DNA of 64,000 nt from Acidobacteriota bacterium. GTDB lineage: Bacteria > Acidobacteriota > Terriglobia > Terriglobales > Acidobacteriaceae. The DNA is taken from assembly GCA_021780075.1 (NCBI GenBank), contig JAJXZL010000005.1:248001-312000 (forward strand). The letters run 5' to 3'. A program made the position numbers and the translations under genes. A model generated the notes under the pieces. The model did not search any database and was not told where the DNA came from. It saw nothing but the letters and a program-made list of their open reading frames with translations. Positions 14,499-32,078 of the stretch are shown here, piece by piece (the first letter of the stretch is position 1; each line of letters opens with the position of its first letter).

Positions 14499-14858
14499 TT
14501 ACATCGGCATCCCAGCCGGCATATTGGCCATTGCCTCATGCACCGAGGTGACCGTGATCGTATCGCCCTTCACACTTCCCTCGACTCGGACATGTTTGCC
14601 TGCGAAGGGCGCAAGAACCGAGGTTTTTCCGGCAAGGGTGTAAATCTTGTCCTTCGTCACCAGCGCATAGCTGGCTCCCTGTTTGACGCACATGCGGGTG
14701 CACTCAGCATCGGTTTTCGCCGACGTCATGTGTTTTCTGCCGCACATGGAGTCGCTGATGACTCCGTCCATGGGTAGGGCCGCCGCACGCGCCTGCTGGA
14801 TTGCAGGAATCGCGAAGGCGGAGAGAAGAGCGATGGCAAGGATCGATGTTCTTTTCAT
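14499..14858 (-). CDS. small exported protein with CGRKH motif
   Basis: A 119-residue exported protein. ATG 14858 with CGGAGAAACC upstream gives a signal peptide (MKRTSILAIALLSAFAIPA). The mature part has ISDSMCGRKHM, ECTRMCVKQGASYALVT and a small beta domain (GKHVRVEGSVKGDTITVTSV) resembling OB-fold-like domains. Three Cys and several Met plus the copper-efflux setting suggest metal or redox function, but this is inferred. No paralog elsewhere in the window. Confidence 0.7.
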   Translation of the reverse strand: MKRTSILAIALLSAFAIPAIQQARAAALPMDGVISDSMCGRKHMTSAKTDAECTRMCVKQGASYALVTKDKIYTLAGKTSVLAPFAGKHVRVEGSVKGDTITVTSVHEAMANMPAGMPM

Positions 14859-27789: not shown

Positions 27790-27872
27790 TTGGAGAGGAC
27801 GAGGATAGAATGCCGCTAGCATGACATCCTCACGACCTGCGCCTCTTCCAAAAGTTCCGTCGAGTTGGCGGT

Positions 27873-28036
27873 TTCCGCAACAGGACATCCTGTTGACTCT
27901 ATTCGAGCCACTATTTCTGTGGATGTTACCCCTTCTGCTTATGTTTTCTCGTTGACTCTGCGCGAGCCACTCCCTGAAGATGCGTGCAAGTGAGGATTCC
28001 GCAACAGGATCTGCTGTTGACTCTGTGCGAGCCACT
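27873..28036 (-). CRISPR. short degenerate CRISPR-like repeat array next to the Cas12-like gene
   Basis: Three related units. Units at 27873-27912 and 27997-28036 are 40 bases long and match at 35 of 40 positions (TTCCGCAACAGGA, five variable bases, TGTTGACTCT, three variable bases, CGAGCCACT). The middle unit (27932-27971) keeps the 21-base right half with 20 of 21 matches to the last unit, but its left half has diverged. Unit-to-unit spacing is 59 and 65 bases, CRISPR-like. The outer units can fold (CAACAGGA/TCCTGTTG in one, CAACAG/CTGTTG in the other). A weaker fourth unit may lie near 27811-27847. Orientation minus is inferred from the effector gene, whose stop codon is 134 bases away. 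Decayed array, or non-CRISPR guide/scaffold repeats, remain possible. Confidence 0.45.
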
Positions 28037-28058
28037 CTTCTCAAAGCCCTACGTCCTC

Positions 28059-28096
28059 GCCCATCATTGGGCTTGAAGTTGCCAGTTGCAAAAAAA
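28059..28096 (-). terminator. hairpin and T-run downstream of the nuclease gene
   Basis: On the minus strand a run of seven T (28096-28090) lies about 75 bases after the nuclease stop codon, and a GCCCA/TGGGC hairpin (28059-28072) follows it. The order (T-run before the hairpin) is not that of a classical terminator for the nuclease. The stretch between gene and array may instead be the array leader or contain a small RNA. Weak call. Confidence 0.2.
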
Positions 28097-28170
28097 GATC
28101 TACAACCGGAAAACCTAACCTGCCCGCACCCGGAGTTTCGATCGTAGGCTCACGGTGCGACCGGGCTGGA

Positions 28171-30351
28171 TCACTGTCCTCCTTTCACTGGCCTTTCGGA
28201 GGCCTCCGAAGACAGACTCAAGCCTGCAAGATTCACTGCAGCATTCATATCGACGCTGACATGGCGCTCGCAGCCCTTGCAAATGTAGAACTCTTTTTCG
28301 GTGGCCGGATTGAGCGTACCGCAGTAGTGACAGCGGCGAGTGGTGTTGATCGAGCTCACTTCATCGACAGCGATCCTGTATTTTGTCGCCACATTCCGAA
28401 GGATCGAGGCGAATTTCCCAACGGCCACAAACTGACGGTACTTCTGCGAACGTTTGAGACTGACTGGGTCGTCGTTGTCGATAGAGTGAGAGACCTTTGC
28501 AAGGAAACTGGACTCAACGGCCAATCGATGCACGCCGACCTGCTGCAAGTGCCGACAGACGTCATGCGCGACCTGCATTTGCCCGTATTCCCGATGCCTG
28601 GTTGAGCGTGCGAAATACTGTCTAATCAGTTCAGCTAATTCTTCCTCTTCCTTAAGCCAATCCGCAAGAATTCTGCCGACTTGAGGATCATTCTGGAGCT
28701 CTTCTCTCAGTCTGAGCATGCCTTTCTTCCCCGCTTTGTCAAACCATGCGGGAAGTTTCTCTCCGAGGTGTGCCCGGAGCAACGATTTGACTCTTTCCGT
28801 TTGCCGGTCCCGTCGCGAGTGCAGGGCCCCGCGCGTTTCGAATGAAGACGGCAGAGGGTCGCCAGGCTTCCAGTCCGGGAGCAGCCGCGTGACGTTGCGC
28901 TTCTCCCAGCGGGTAGGACCAAGATCGATACGGAACGGAACCCTGTTCACGTGATCGGTGGATTTCAGGAGATTCATGGTTAGTTCCCGGAAGGTCTTGC
29001 GTGCCGGTTCGTAGAGTGTGCCGAAGCGAATCCCGTCCTCGGTTCTCCTCCAGCCGATGTCTAGCCCAGCGGTAAGTTCGCTGGGCTTGGCAAGCGGGCG
29101 CTGGAGCTCGACCACGAGAAACACCCAAAGGGCGCCATCGAGATAAATGAGTTTCCATTCTTTCAGGTGCGACCCTTCGGGAAGAGGTCGGTGTTGCAGA
29201 ACAGCGAAATGATAGACCCATCGTTCATTTTCTCCACCTGGAATGGAGATAGTCGCCTGGCGCAGCTTGCTCCTTGTGCGAATGCCGACTTTCAGGGGAT
29301 GACCAGTTTGTCGAGGTAACAGCGGTGGACCAAAGACGAGACCAGGAACGCCGCGTCCGGAATCGAGATCTGCCGAACTGACGCCTGCTTGATTGAAGTA
29401 GTAGTGAAGGCCCCAGTCTTGAGCCTTGGGCGATTCAGGATACCTGATTCTTGGCCAGCCTTCACTAAACCCCGCCTTTGACGTATCCCGCGCCGCAAGC
29501 GTCGCTTTGAATGCGCTCAATGCTGGCCGCGATTCCCAGTGGCGAAGCCCGAGACTCTTGGCTTCCTGGGCTGCAATTGCACCGAAGTCGCGAAGGTACT
29601 CGTTCAGGGCAGTGTAGTCGGGCTTGTACTTCTCCGCAAAGGCGATGACTTGGTCAAGCAGTCCTGCTGGAACTGGTCTATCAAGATGGATGCGTCTTTG
29701 CAAATCGCGAACAAAGTGCCAGAGACCGTCGATTCCGGGTTCTTCAATCTTGAGTTTCTCCGGATGCTTCATCCTGTCCTTCGGCCGGCCTATCGAGTTG
29801 TTCATCGCGTCGATGGACGGAAGAATCGTTCCCTGGACAAATCCCTTAATCTGTTCCACCGGCGCCGGTGAACATTTTCGACGAGCTTCTCTGCAAAGGT
29901 AGGCCAGCCGGTTCCAGAAGGCTCTTTGACGCTGGATTGAAGCTTTGAGCCAGTCGGGAATTTCCGGGTCCGTGCGAACACCGGGATGATCGAAGTAGGC
30001 GCGAAACTTGTAGATCTCCACTCGCCAGCCATCCTCCGCGCGAAACTTCTTCGGTGTCCTGGAGAGGCCCGGTACCCGATAACAGCCCGGTTCGAGCGGA
30101 ATTTCCACCAAAACTGCGGAACGGGTCTGTTTGCGAAGAGCCCCATCAGGCCCGACGAGTTGCATCTTGACAGACAGATGATCCGAGAGAGCAAAACCCT
30201 CCGGCAATTGAACTGGAGGCAGTTTTGCAAATGTGACACCGTTGCCGTCGAACCGTAAAGAGCCATGCGTAAAGGCCTTCGTCGTTTTGAGCGCGAGCTC
30301 GGACAGATGCACTTGCAGAACTTGTCCGTCAAAGGTGAGATGGCTAATCAC
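28171..30351 (-). CDS. Cas12/TnpB-superfamily RuvC nuclease, type V-like effector of unassigned subtype
   Basis: A predicted RNA-guided DNA-binding protein of 726 residues. GTG start with GAGGAAA eight bases upstream. The RuvC domain is in the C-terminal half and complete: Asp431 (TAGLDIGWRR), Glu613 (HRLAVESSFLAKVSH) and Asp701 (SVDMNAAVNLAG). Between the last two lies a four-Cys zinc ribbon, C674/C677 (RRCHYCGTLNP) and C691/C694 (YICKGCERH). The N-terminal 420 residues are a long lobe with no recognised enzyme motif, as expected of recognition and OB-like wedge domains. At 726 residues it is much longer than transposon TnpB (about 400) and shorter than Cas12a/b; the size fits compact Cas12 groups (c-, g-, m- or n-like). 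No cas1/cas2/cas4 or TnpA is nearby, and a degenerate repeat array sits just downstream. Confidence 0.8.
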   Translation of the reverse strand: MISHLTFDGQVLQVHLSELALKTTKAFTHGSLRFDGNGVTFAKLPPVQLPEGFALSDHLSVKMQLVGPDGALRKQTRSAVLVEIPLEPGCYRVPGLSRTPKKFRAEDGWRVEIYKFRAYFDHPGVRTDPEIPDWLKASIQRQRAFWNRLAYLCREARRKCSPAPVEQIKGFVQGTILPSIDAMNNSIGRPKDRMKHPEKLKIEEPGIDGLWHFVRDLQRRIHLDRPVPAGLLDQVIAFAEKYKPDYTALNEYLRDFGAIAAQEAKSLGLRHWESRPALSAFKATLAARDTSKAGFSEGWPRIRYPESPKAQDWGLHYYFNQAGVSSADLDSGRGVPGLVFGPPLLPRQTGHPLKVGIRTRSKLRQATISIPGGENERWVYHFAVLQHRPLPEGSHLKEWKLIYLDGALWVFLVVELQRPLAKPSELTAGLDIGWRRTEDGIRFGTLYEPARKTFRELTMNLLKSTDHVNRVPFRIDLGPTRWEKRNVTRLLPDWKPGDPLPSSFETRGALHSRRDRQTERVKSLLRAHLGEKLPAWFDKAGKKGMLRLREELQNDPQVGRILADWLKEEEELAELIRQYFARSTRHREYGQMQVAHDVCRHLQQVGVHRLAVESSFLAKVSHSIDNDDPVSLKRSQKYRQFVAVGKFASILRNVATKYRIAVDEVSSINTTRRCHYCGTLNPATEKEFYICKGCERHVSVDMNAAVNLAGLSLSSEASERPVKGGQ

Positions 30352-30478
30352 AATCTGGTTTCCTCAGCGGCACCGCTCAATGGGCATCGAATTATCCTTA
30401 ACTGGACCAAATTTGCCTCTACAATGAATCCCTTGTGGTTTTGAGCGACGATGTCCTTCTTTCTCGAAATGCATCCTT

Positions 30479-31753
30479 TCACTTTTCGCGTTTGGCTGGC
30501 GCGTTCAAGCGTTCCTTCAGCGCCGTCTCCAGCGCCGCTTTCCGCTCAGCGTATTCCTCGCGAGTAACGGTGCCAGACAGCTTCTCGCTTTCCAGCGCGA
30601 ACAACTCTTCTTTTAGTGCGCTCAGTAGAGCGGCATTCTTGGTCACAGTCGACGTACCGTTCGGCGTGGATTCCGCACCGGCATTTACCGCGTGGCCTGC
30701 AACGGCCGCCGATGGTGTACCGGCTGGTTTGCGCAACAAAAATGCTGAGAGAGCTGTAAGGGCAATCGCCAGACCACTCAGGATCCACCACTTGTACTTG
30801 CTCAAAGGGTCTGGGGTGTTGATGGGTTCGCCGATACCGCCACCTGGCTGGCCTTCGGCAGTGCTGGCGGCCTGCCTGTCGCCGCTTTCCTCTTCGTGCG
30901 GCATCGAACCGGCACCGGAGACGGTGAAGGCCAGGAATTTGCCTGGAAGCAGGTTCCGAGCCAAAAAGGTCTGGACATTGGCGTCTCCCTGAACGGATTG
31001 AAACGCCGAATTCGAGCCAGCCGCAAAGCTCATGCTTTTCGGCAACAGTACGCCGACGGCTTGCGTGGGCAACGACGCCTGAGGATGGAACGTGAAACTG
31101 TTGCTGTACGGAACTGTATACTCGACCGCGAAGAGCGTGTCCTTGTTGCCTTCATCGGGTTGAATGGGGAAGTTGAAGGCATAGTGCCCCTTTGGGCCGT
31201 TGGCGTCGAGTGTGATATTTGTGGGCATGCCGTTGGGCCGCTGGGCTGCTGCGCCTTCGATGGTCGCTTCAGGGGGAAGAACAATTGCAAAGGTGCGCCG
31301 GCTCCACTGGGTGCGTGGCGGCGAACTCGTGTTGTGCACAAAGTAGCGCTCAGTAACGTGAAGACGACCGTTGTCGGATTCAAGCTCGAAAACGTCGGCT
31401 TCGATGGCAACGCCCTTGACCTTGGCCGCCACGTCGTAAACGGCAATATCGCCAGGCGCGTTAGCCTTGGGCGCGGCAATGAAATAGCTCGCACCCTGAT
31501 GTGTGACGCGAATCAGGTAGGGGCTGTTGGCCGGCTCATTCAGAGAATAATGGCCCTGAGCATCCGTCGTCGCATGAGCTACCTCGCTCATGCCCGCTTG
31601 TATGTCCACGAGTACAACCGCATCGCCCGAGGCCGGTCTTCCGGTGGTCTTGTCGGTGACCGTGCCGGCCACGGAAGCTGTCTGCGCCGCTGCCCCAGCA
31701 ACCAGGAGACTCAGGGTTGCACAGCTTACGAAAAGTGACTTGATCGGTTTCAT
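30479..31753 (-). CDS. exported carboxypeptidase-regulatory-like domain protein with C-terminal membrane helix
   Basis: A 424-residue protein. ATG 31753 starts a signal peptide (MKPIKSLFVSCATLSLLVAG). A carboxypeptidase-regulatory-like beta sandwich follows (SVAGTVTDKTTGRPASGD, TTDAQGHYSLNEPAN), then a beta-rich region, a Gly/Pro linker, one transmembrane helix (WWILSGLAIALTALSAFLL) and a charged coiled-coil tail (LKEELFALESEKLSGTVTRE) resembling the CcmI-like coiled coil next door. It shares strand and spacing with the Ccm genes, suggesting a role in cytochrome c maturation or its membrane assembly. Confidence 0.7.
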   Translation of the reverse strand: MKPIKSLFVSCATLSLLVAGAAAQTASVAGTVTDKTTGRPASGDAVVLVDIQAGMSEVAHATTDAQGHYSLNEPANSPYLIRVTHQGASYFIAAPKANAPGDIAVYDVAAKVKGVAIEADVFELESDNGRLHVTERYFVHNTSSPPRTQWSRRTFAIVLPPEATIEGAAAQRPNGMPTNITLDANGPKGHYAFNFPIQPDEGNKDTLFAVEYTVPYSNSFTFHPQASLPTQAVGVLLPKSMSFAAGSNSAFQSVQGDANVQTFLARNLLPGKFLAFTVSGAGSMPHEEESGDRQAASTAEGQPGGGIGEPINTPDPLSKYKWWILSGLAIALTALSAFLLRKPAGTPSAAVAGHAVNAGAESTPNGTSTVTKNAALLSALKEELFALESEKLSGTVTREEYAERKAALETALKERLNAPAKREK

Positions 31754-31769
31754 GGTTGCGATGGAATCC

Positions 31770-32078
31770 TTATCGGGCACGCAATGCGATGCGCCCTGGT
31801 CTGGTTCTCTCGACGCGTTCAATCTCTGTGATCAACAGCGCGGTTTCGTTTTCGAGCAGCGACCGCTGCGCGACAAAATCTTCCTCCGGATATTTGCCCG
31901 CGCGGTACTCGAAGGTCAGATCGCGCAGGTTCTCATAAAGCTGCTCCTTGCGCTCCAGCAGATAATCCAAGCGGCTCTTTTCGGATTGGTTCGCCGGAGC
32001 GTTCTCTGGCCAAAAGATGTAGATTCCGAGCGCCAACGTCAACATCGCTCCGGCGATAATTCCTTGCATCTCGGTCAT
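31770..32078 (-). CDS. CcmI-like small membrane protein
   Basis: A 102-residue protein with one N-terminal transmembrane segment (IIAGAMLTLALGIYIFWPE) followed by a coiled coil (LDYLLERKEQLYENLRDLTF, YRAGKYPEEDFVAQRSLLE), the pattern of the N-terminal part of CcmI and similar cytochrome c biogenesis proteins. GGAGG precedes ATG. It begins three bases after ccmH, so it belongs to the same operon. Confidence 0.65.
   Translation of the reverse strand: MTEMQGIIAGAMLTLALGIYIFWPENAPANQSEKSRLDYLLERKEQLYENLRDLTFEYRAGKYPEEDFVAQRSLLENETALLITEIERVERTRPGRIALRAR

Follow-up and report, generated by a model that had tools for sequence, protein, structure and literature searches.

What is a gene for a compact, RuvC-bearing protein doing beside three short repeats in the chromosome of an Acidobacteriota bacterium, and to which RNA-guided system does it belong? 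The locus lies at positions 27873–30351 of a 64,000-nucleotide stretch of contig JAJXZL010000005.1 (assembly GCA_021780075.1), the window, to which all coordinates without a locus handle refer. A first-pass annotation made from the letters alone had seen in it a branch resembling type V CRISPR (clustered regularly interspaced short palindromic repeats) effectors with a degenerate mini-array, and the open reading frame (ORF), the three repeats, their hairpin frame and the arrays of relatives agree with that view. We find it probable that the gene belongs to a type V CRISPR effector lineage that is sister to Cas12m and acts by DNA binding, and that the copy in the window has strayed into the chromosome. 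The basis is the gene itself, its fold relationship, the arrays, the covariation of their hairpin, the adaptation genes of two relatives and the variability of the RuvC triad. The effector gene and its parts are the following.

28171–30351, minus strand: effector gene, sister to Cas12m, 726 aa, GTG start, no internal stop
30360–30365, minus strand: GAGGAA, 8 nt upstream of the GTG, a probable ribosome-binding site judging by its sequence
30037–30351, minus strand: beta-rich N-terminal region, residues 1–105, beyond the matched range of solved Cas12m
28198–30030, minus strand: Cas12m-like core (WED, REC, RuvC and zinc ribbon, domain names by homology), residues 108–718
29059–29061, minus strand: RuvC-I Asp431 codon, from the family alignment
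28513–28515, minus strand: RuvC-II Glu613 codon, from the family alignment
28249–28251, minus strand: RuvC-III Asp701 codon, from the family alignment
28270–28332, minus strand: zinc ribbon C674, C677, C691 and C694, from the Pfam match and the family alignment

In the alignment, D431, E613, D701 and the four cysteines of the window protein coincide with the family's RuvC and zinc-ribbon sites, and its sole Pfam match above cut-off is to the Cas12f1-like zinc-ribbon domain (PF07282, residues 645–708). Codon differences between the window gene and seven relatives amount to 0.64–0.68 at third and 0.27–0.32 at second positions, a pattern that fits purifying selection over a long time and says nothing for the recent past.

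Structural comparison showed that residues ~103–718 share the fold and domain order of Cas12m over the core, and among the families that it listed four Cas12m entries rank ahead of Cas12f. In both trees the lineage joins Cas12m, yet it lies outside all Cas12m-type rows (29 in tree 1 and 28 in tree 2). By Cas12m-type we mean relatives of a Pelobacter protein together with plasmid hits, the rows assigned by name being MsCas12m (via D274) and four PDB chains. The trees are quick ones with long branches and few outgroup rows, and tree 2 was made without 2 TnpB-like rows and 12 others. An intermediate between TnpB and Cas12, which had also been proposed for the locus, is unsupported, as the lineage groups with Cas12m in both trees, from which other Cas12 subtypes were left out. 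The view that the protein is not a TnpB is upheld by its score of 35.3 bits with the TnpB family model NF040570 (cut-off 100); the IS607 and IS200 TnpB models give 21.7 and 16.7 bits against cut-offs of 350 and 425. PADLOC models divide evenly between a Cas12f-named model (99.3 bits) and Cas12u1 (99.9 bits), as they do for the Pelobacter Cas12m-type protein (312 and 309.1 bits). The latter is encoded on Pelobacter propionicus plasmid pPRO1 (L020, 5122–5380), annotated as a zinc ribbon protein, with Asn at the RuvC-I site and a 4-copy array; it is one of 2 weak matches of a protein search of the plasmid collection, the other being annotated as a transposase.

The window protein has 726 aa against ~600 aa in compact Cas12m, and its residues 1–102 stand outside the Cas12m match. 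Five Cas12m-type rows are likewise long (661–725 aa), and their extensions do not align with the window N-terminus (hhalign probability 0.6%). Foldseek found no significant match for the N-terminal region in the PDB (best E 0.43), and such weak structural matches would be no proof of a new fold. Where subtype V-M ends is a matter of convention.

A protein search returned 115 homologs at E ≤ 0.001, with identity down to 31%. The gene is rare: among 200 genomes of the family Acidobacteriaceae only the window's own carries it. A contig scan of the genome collection gave 2 loci, both labelled as Acidobacteriaceae metagenome-assembled genomes, seven relatives lie on IMG/VR contigs, and a protein search of INPHARED phages gave no match. 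The first-pass annotation had suggested looking for effector and similar repeats together in relatives, and in eight of the nine relatives fetched (L002 and L004–L010) repeats indeed follow the effector on its own strand; L005 and L006 share one array, which leaves seven of the eight independent. By script count the array of L002 has 3 units and those of the virus loci 10 to 25 downstream, with seven more upstream in L007 (1681–2142); other units off the main arrays occur in L004 (1997–2165 and 9940–9977) and L005 (11500–11536). The virus repeats are 37 nt long with a period of ~71, and 112 of the 116 spacers outside the window measure 33–37 nt, where the script assigned 35 nt to the final spacer of every array. 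The repeat start GTAGCAA[CT]G is common to L004, L005 and MsCas12m.

The hairpin of these repeats was tested on 19 of the 119, chosen by hand and including the window's three. Its 6 bp form in all 114 cells, and none of the 500 shuffles attains the observed values for paired cells, for cells with double changes or for the covariation score. The window repeats provide changes at two hairpin pairs, from C-G to G-U and from A-U to C-G.

Three 21-nt units lie in the window on the minus strand at 27892, 27951 and 28016, spaced by 59 and 65 and 134 bases downstream of the ORF. Their conserved form is AGTGGCTC-NNNNN-GAGTCAAC (minus strand), and a search of the 3.88-Mb genome for AGTGGCTCGNNNAGAGTCAAC, allowing 2 mismatches, gives these three places only (reversed control, 0). 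A strict frame (AGTG, 6-bp stem, 5-nt loop, CAAC), picked after the virus and window repeats were known, has 3 matches over both strands of the 64 kb, always in this array.

28016–28036, minus strand: repeat unit 1, AGTGGCTCGCACAGAGTCAAC, 37-nt register to 28052
27988–28015, minus strand: putative spacer 1, 28 nt
27951–27971, minus strand: repeat unit 2, AGTGGCTCGCGCAGAGTCAAC, 37-nt register to 27987
27929–27950, minus strand: putative spacer 2, 22 nt
27892–27912, minus strand: repeat unit 3, AGTGGCTCGAATAGAGTCAAC, 37-nt register to 27928
27857–27891, minus strand: putative spacer 3, 35 nt, a length set by the script and not a true end

The span originally noted ends at 27873, and putative spacer 3 lies partly beyond it. 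Spacers 1 and 3 are alike, the first 22 nt of spacer 3 resembling spacer 1 with TCCTGTTGCGGAA shared between them (27870–27891 and 27994–28015); each is also complementary, over part of its length, to its own repeat's CAAC end. Because the hairpin is kept while conservation is lacking in the 5' halves of the repeats, in the window as in L002, we conclude from the repeat sequences that the window array can be regarded as a true but degenerate relative of the virus arrays.

Two virus relatives carry cas4-cas1-cas2 directly behind the effector, with the array after them (L008, 12263–14207; L010, 12293–14237). The matches in L008 and L010, respectively, are to cas4 (PF01930, E 1.5e-24 and 6.5e-23), cas1 (PF01867, E 8e-93 and 2e-95) and cas2 (PF09827, 96 aa, E 9e-23 and 2e-23), and with 473 and 466 bits both Cas1 proteins score above the cut-off of the type I-C model (385). 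No Cas1 match was found in the other five of the seven virus records, which may be fragments; the genome of L002 has Cas1 matches on other contigs, and no adaptation genes are annotated in 8 fetched Cas12m-type plasmid stretches. The virus records look like phages or prophages because they contain terminase-like ORFs, annealing proteins, integrases, primase-helicases and methyltransferases. The profile phrog_2 matches four of the seven, and the three phrog_2 ORFs scanned (L005, L008 and L009 records) match terminase large subunit profiles, two of them adjoining a PAPS reductase gene. Annealing proteins (RecT or Erf) are encoded close to the arrays in L004 and L006–L009, and integrases in L004 and L007. 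Other parts of the records hold primase-helicases and DNA methyltransferases; L004 also has a thiamine pyrophosphate (TPP) enzyme of cellular kind. The L010 record further encodes a 913-aa primase/helicase with a seeming intein (L050, 4595–7336), its primase matches being split around residues 307–676, which match terminase profiles.

The catalytic triad varies within the family. Homolog alignments comprised subsets of 35 and 94 of the 115 proteins, and in the 94-row one the triad reads DED in 56, EED in 17, HQD in 5, DEG in 4, DKD in 2 and six other combinations once each; non-DED triads make up 34 of the 90 rows readable at all three sites, four rows having no letter at the last. The RuvC-I Asp is replaced in 27 of the 94 (E 18, H 6, and Q, A and R one each), and the zinc cysteines read CCCC in 84. 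Among close relatives, P0003 (79% identical) is DAD, P0004 (74% identical) DED, P0005 DQD and P0008 DPD, the RuvC-II site lying in a less conserved stretch where single departures may be misaligned. The effector of L008, one of the two with adaptation genes, is EED. The effector gene of L002 has a frameshift near its 5' end. The first-pass annotation had credited the window protein with every catalytic part of a nuclease: the residues are all present, while the implied cutting does not follow from them, the triad not being kept in the family and the DED Cas12m tested leaving double-stranded DNA uncut (PMC11013384).

Cas12m binds DNA matched by its CRISPR RNA (crRNA) and silences it without cutting, even with a DED triad (PMC11013384, PMC10442227). 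Given this behavior and how often the triad is altered, we estimate that the lineage more probably binds than cuts, by a fair margin. From the evidence above we infer transcription, processing, DNA binding, spacer acquisition and a role in phage competition. In the virus-borne relatives, the downstream array would be transcribed and the pre-crRNA trimmed inside the 37-nt repeat, with the conserved 3' hairpin staying as a handle; the effector-crRNA complex would then bind matching DNA and block transcription or replication, for which cutting would not be needed. Phages may use the system against competing elements, and two relatives could gain new spacers through cas4-cas1-cas2. The window copy, with an intact effector and an array down to three hairpin-only units, may be a decaying remnant or a fixed-guide regulator.

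Several observations weigh against this reading. The trees contain Cas12m-type rows but no other Cas12 subtype. The window spacing of 59 and 65 is shorter than the ~71 of the virus arrays, and the covariance model R2, built from 16 repeats without those of the window, has no match in the 64 kb and reaches at best 8.4 bits (E 0.26) with filters off over 5 kb. No array was found at L003 over the 1.3 kb upstream and the 2.3 kb downstream, the upstream side holding one marginal hairpin-like match (E 0.099), and the GTAGCAA start is missing from two other Cas12m-type arrays (L020 and L025). Two of the five measures of the hairpin test are not above the shuffles, namely double-change pairs (4, with at least as many in 51 of the 500) and further pair types (5, with at least as many in 410). 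Terminase_6N and Phage_portal match none of the seven virus records, and the spacer searches that were run found no DNA protospacers. Finally, the window protein is itself DED, so that it may cut, as DED-bearing Cas12m clades may do (PMC10442227).

This last point favors the alternative that survives best, in which the lineage is an active RNA-guided nuclease whose DED members, the window copy included, cut double-stranded DNA, the altered triads being side branches. DED is indeed the triad of 56 of the 94 homologs, the window protein combines it with all four zinc cysteines, and Cas12m clades 3 and 4, DED included, may hydrolyze DNA (PMC10442227). However, more than a third of the readable homologs (34 of 90) depart from DED, near relatives among them even if RuvC-II singles may be misaligned; L008, which has adaptation genes as only L010 does besides, is EED, and DED Cas12m did not cut double-stranded DNA when tested (PMC11013384). 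We consider this alternative rather unlikely.

A further proposal is that the chromosome has co-opted the window copy as a fixed-guide regulator, its three units supplying stable guide RNAs for host genes. This would fit the intact effector, the hairpin kept in all three units despite drifted 5' halves, the likeness of spacers 1 and 3, and the third codon positions, which differ most from relatives and point to long-term selection, not to the recent past. However, the combined pattern of spacers 1 and 3 recurs just once elsewhere in the genome, at 3 mismatches, as do the first 20 nt of spacer 2, and we judge such a regulator unlikely, a little more so than the nuclease. That the repeats are chance or unrelated and the protein an orphan TnpB-like one is highly improbable: model R2 misses the just three, unevenly spaced units, but the hairpin frame, albeit chosen afterwards, is confined in the 64 kb to this array, on the strand and gene side seen in relatives, two pairs carry changes on both sides particular to the window (one to G-U), and the TnpB score falls far below its cut-off.

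The lineage sister to Cas12m may be specified further, and only tentatively, as a phage-carried type V subtype, sister to V-M, that silences by binding, whose RuvC decayed many times, that captured cas4-cas1-cas2 of the I-C kind, and that serves phage against phage, perhaps against rivals' Cas12/TnpB-like genes. The spacer set comprised 119 units, 116 of them outside the window and 106 without the L006 array that duplicates that of L005, 3 of these from L002. Compared with related loci, the 119 units gave matches of 11–17 nt only (best E 0.005 over 15 nt, limit E 1). Exact scanning of IMG/VR with pieces of six of the 119 led for L010_s3, L010_s1, L007_s8, L008_s4 and L005_s2 only to their own array or a record with the same array, with no DNA target for L010_s3, and gave no match for pieces of window spacer 1; the L007 array had no match in INPHARED. 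The complement of L010_s3 (14602–14635) encodes CEKCGKMYDQD, which agrees at 10 of 11 residues with the HQD sister clade's zinc ribbon (E 4e-5 when family proteins alone are searched, E 0.026 against virus ORFs). Other translated spacers gave L009_s7 (E 0.049) and self-matches from the unmasked L007 upstream array against virus ORFs, where the reversed control had one match at E 0.037. The target of L010_s3 could be any Cas12/TnpB-like gene, and the idea of rivalry would rest on this one protein-level match to a common zinc-ribbon motif. The first 13–14 nt of L010 spacer 11 match a region just past the array in five loci (L004, 13900–13913; L005, 6145–6157; L006, 12483–12495; L007, 6552–6564; L008, 15520–15533), which could be a diverged protospacer or chance.

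Around the window gene, a Pfam scan of ten ORFs found no cas gene and no transposase, in keeping with the earlier remark that no TnpA lies nearby. The accompanying remark that adaptation genes are missing is borne out in the window by these ten neighbors, but not for the lineage, two virus relatives of which carry cas4-cas1-cas2. The neighbors named by Pfam are chromosomal in kind, with CusB/HlyD and outer-membrane efflux proteins on one side and CcmH/CcmF on the other; five of the ten have no Pfam match. The sole Cas1 match in the genome is weak and partial (26.4 bits) and lies on another contig, Cas2, Cas4 and transposon ends not having been searched genome-wide, and the TnpB model matches the window gene only. 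A 69% paralog of the gene region 30479–31822, beside the effector, lies elsewhere in this genome, on a different contig (G000:C44).

To our knowledge, type V-M is regarded as minimal, without spacer acquisition of its own, and as blocking rather than cutting. If our reading is true, this sister lineage, carried on phage contigs beside arrays that reach 25 units and in two cases beside cas4-cas1-cas2, would show how a binding effector can take part in adaptive immunity; it would also offer natural DNA-binding effectors with an extra domain, and the window copy is a test case for an effector stranded in a chromosome. V-M systems have been described on plasmids and some prophages (PMC11656645), 24 virus-encoded landfill proteins were placed with Cas12m (PMC12607003), a phage survey lists one phage Cas12, a Cas12a (PMC12676247), and the 2025 classification has at least five more subtype candidates (PMC12669027). 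In the accessible portions of the open literature (main texts, excluding supplements and subscription papers), we found neither a V-M-like effector with cas4-cas1-cas2 nor the clade of this lineage.

How, then, does the lineage compare with known systems? The phage-encoded Cas12l (CasLambda) and Cas12j (CasPhi) are also compact, virus-borne type V effectors of similar size. Cas12f (type V-F) and TnpB share with the window protein the RuvC and zinc-ribbon C-terminus (PF07282). Altae-Tran et al. (2023; PMC10910872) describe a Cas12m-Cas3 hybrid (I-C-like) in which, as in L008 and L010, a Cas12m-type effector is joined to type I-C-like genes; the partner in the hybrid is Cas3, whereas that in L008 and L010 is cas4-cas1-cas2 with a Cas1 passing the I-C model. 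The closest likeness is to Cas12m itself (type V-M, also V-U1; for example MmCas12m2, GoCas12m and MsCas12m), which shares with the lineage the fold of residues 103–715, the GWR RuvC-I motif, a variable triad, ~37-nt repeats with a terminal hairpin, an array downstream of the gene and occurrence on mobile elements; the repeat start is shared by MsCas12m alone. In contrast to Cas12m, the lineage forms a separate sister clade in the two trees, has EED and other triads, carries cas4-cas1-cas2 in two virus relatives, and possesses an extra N-terminal region of ~105 residues that is also unlike the extensions of some long Cas12m-type rows.
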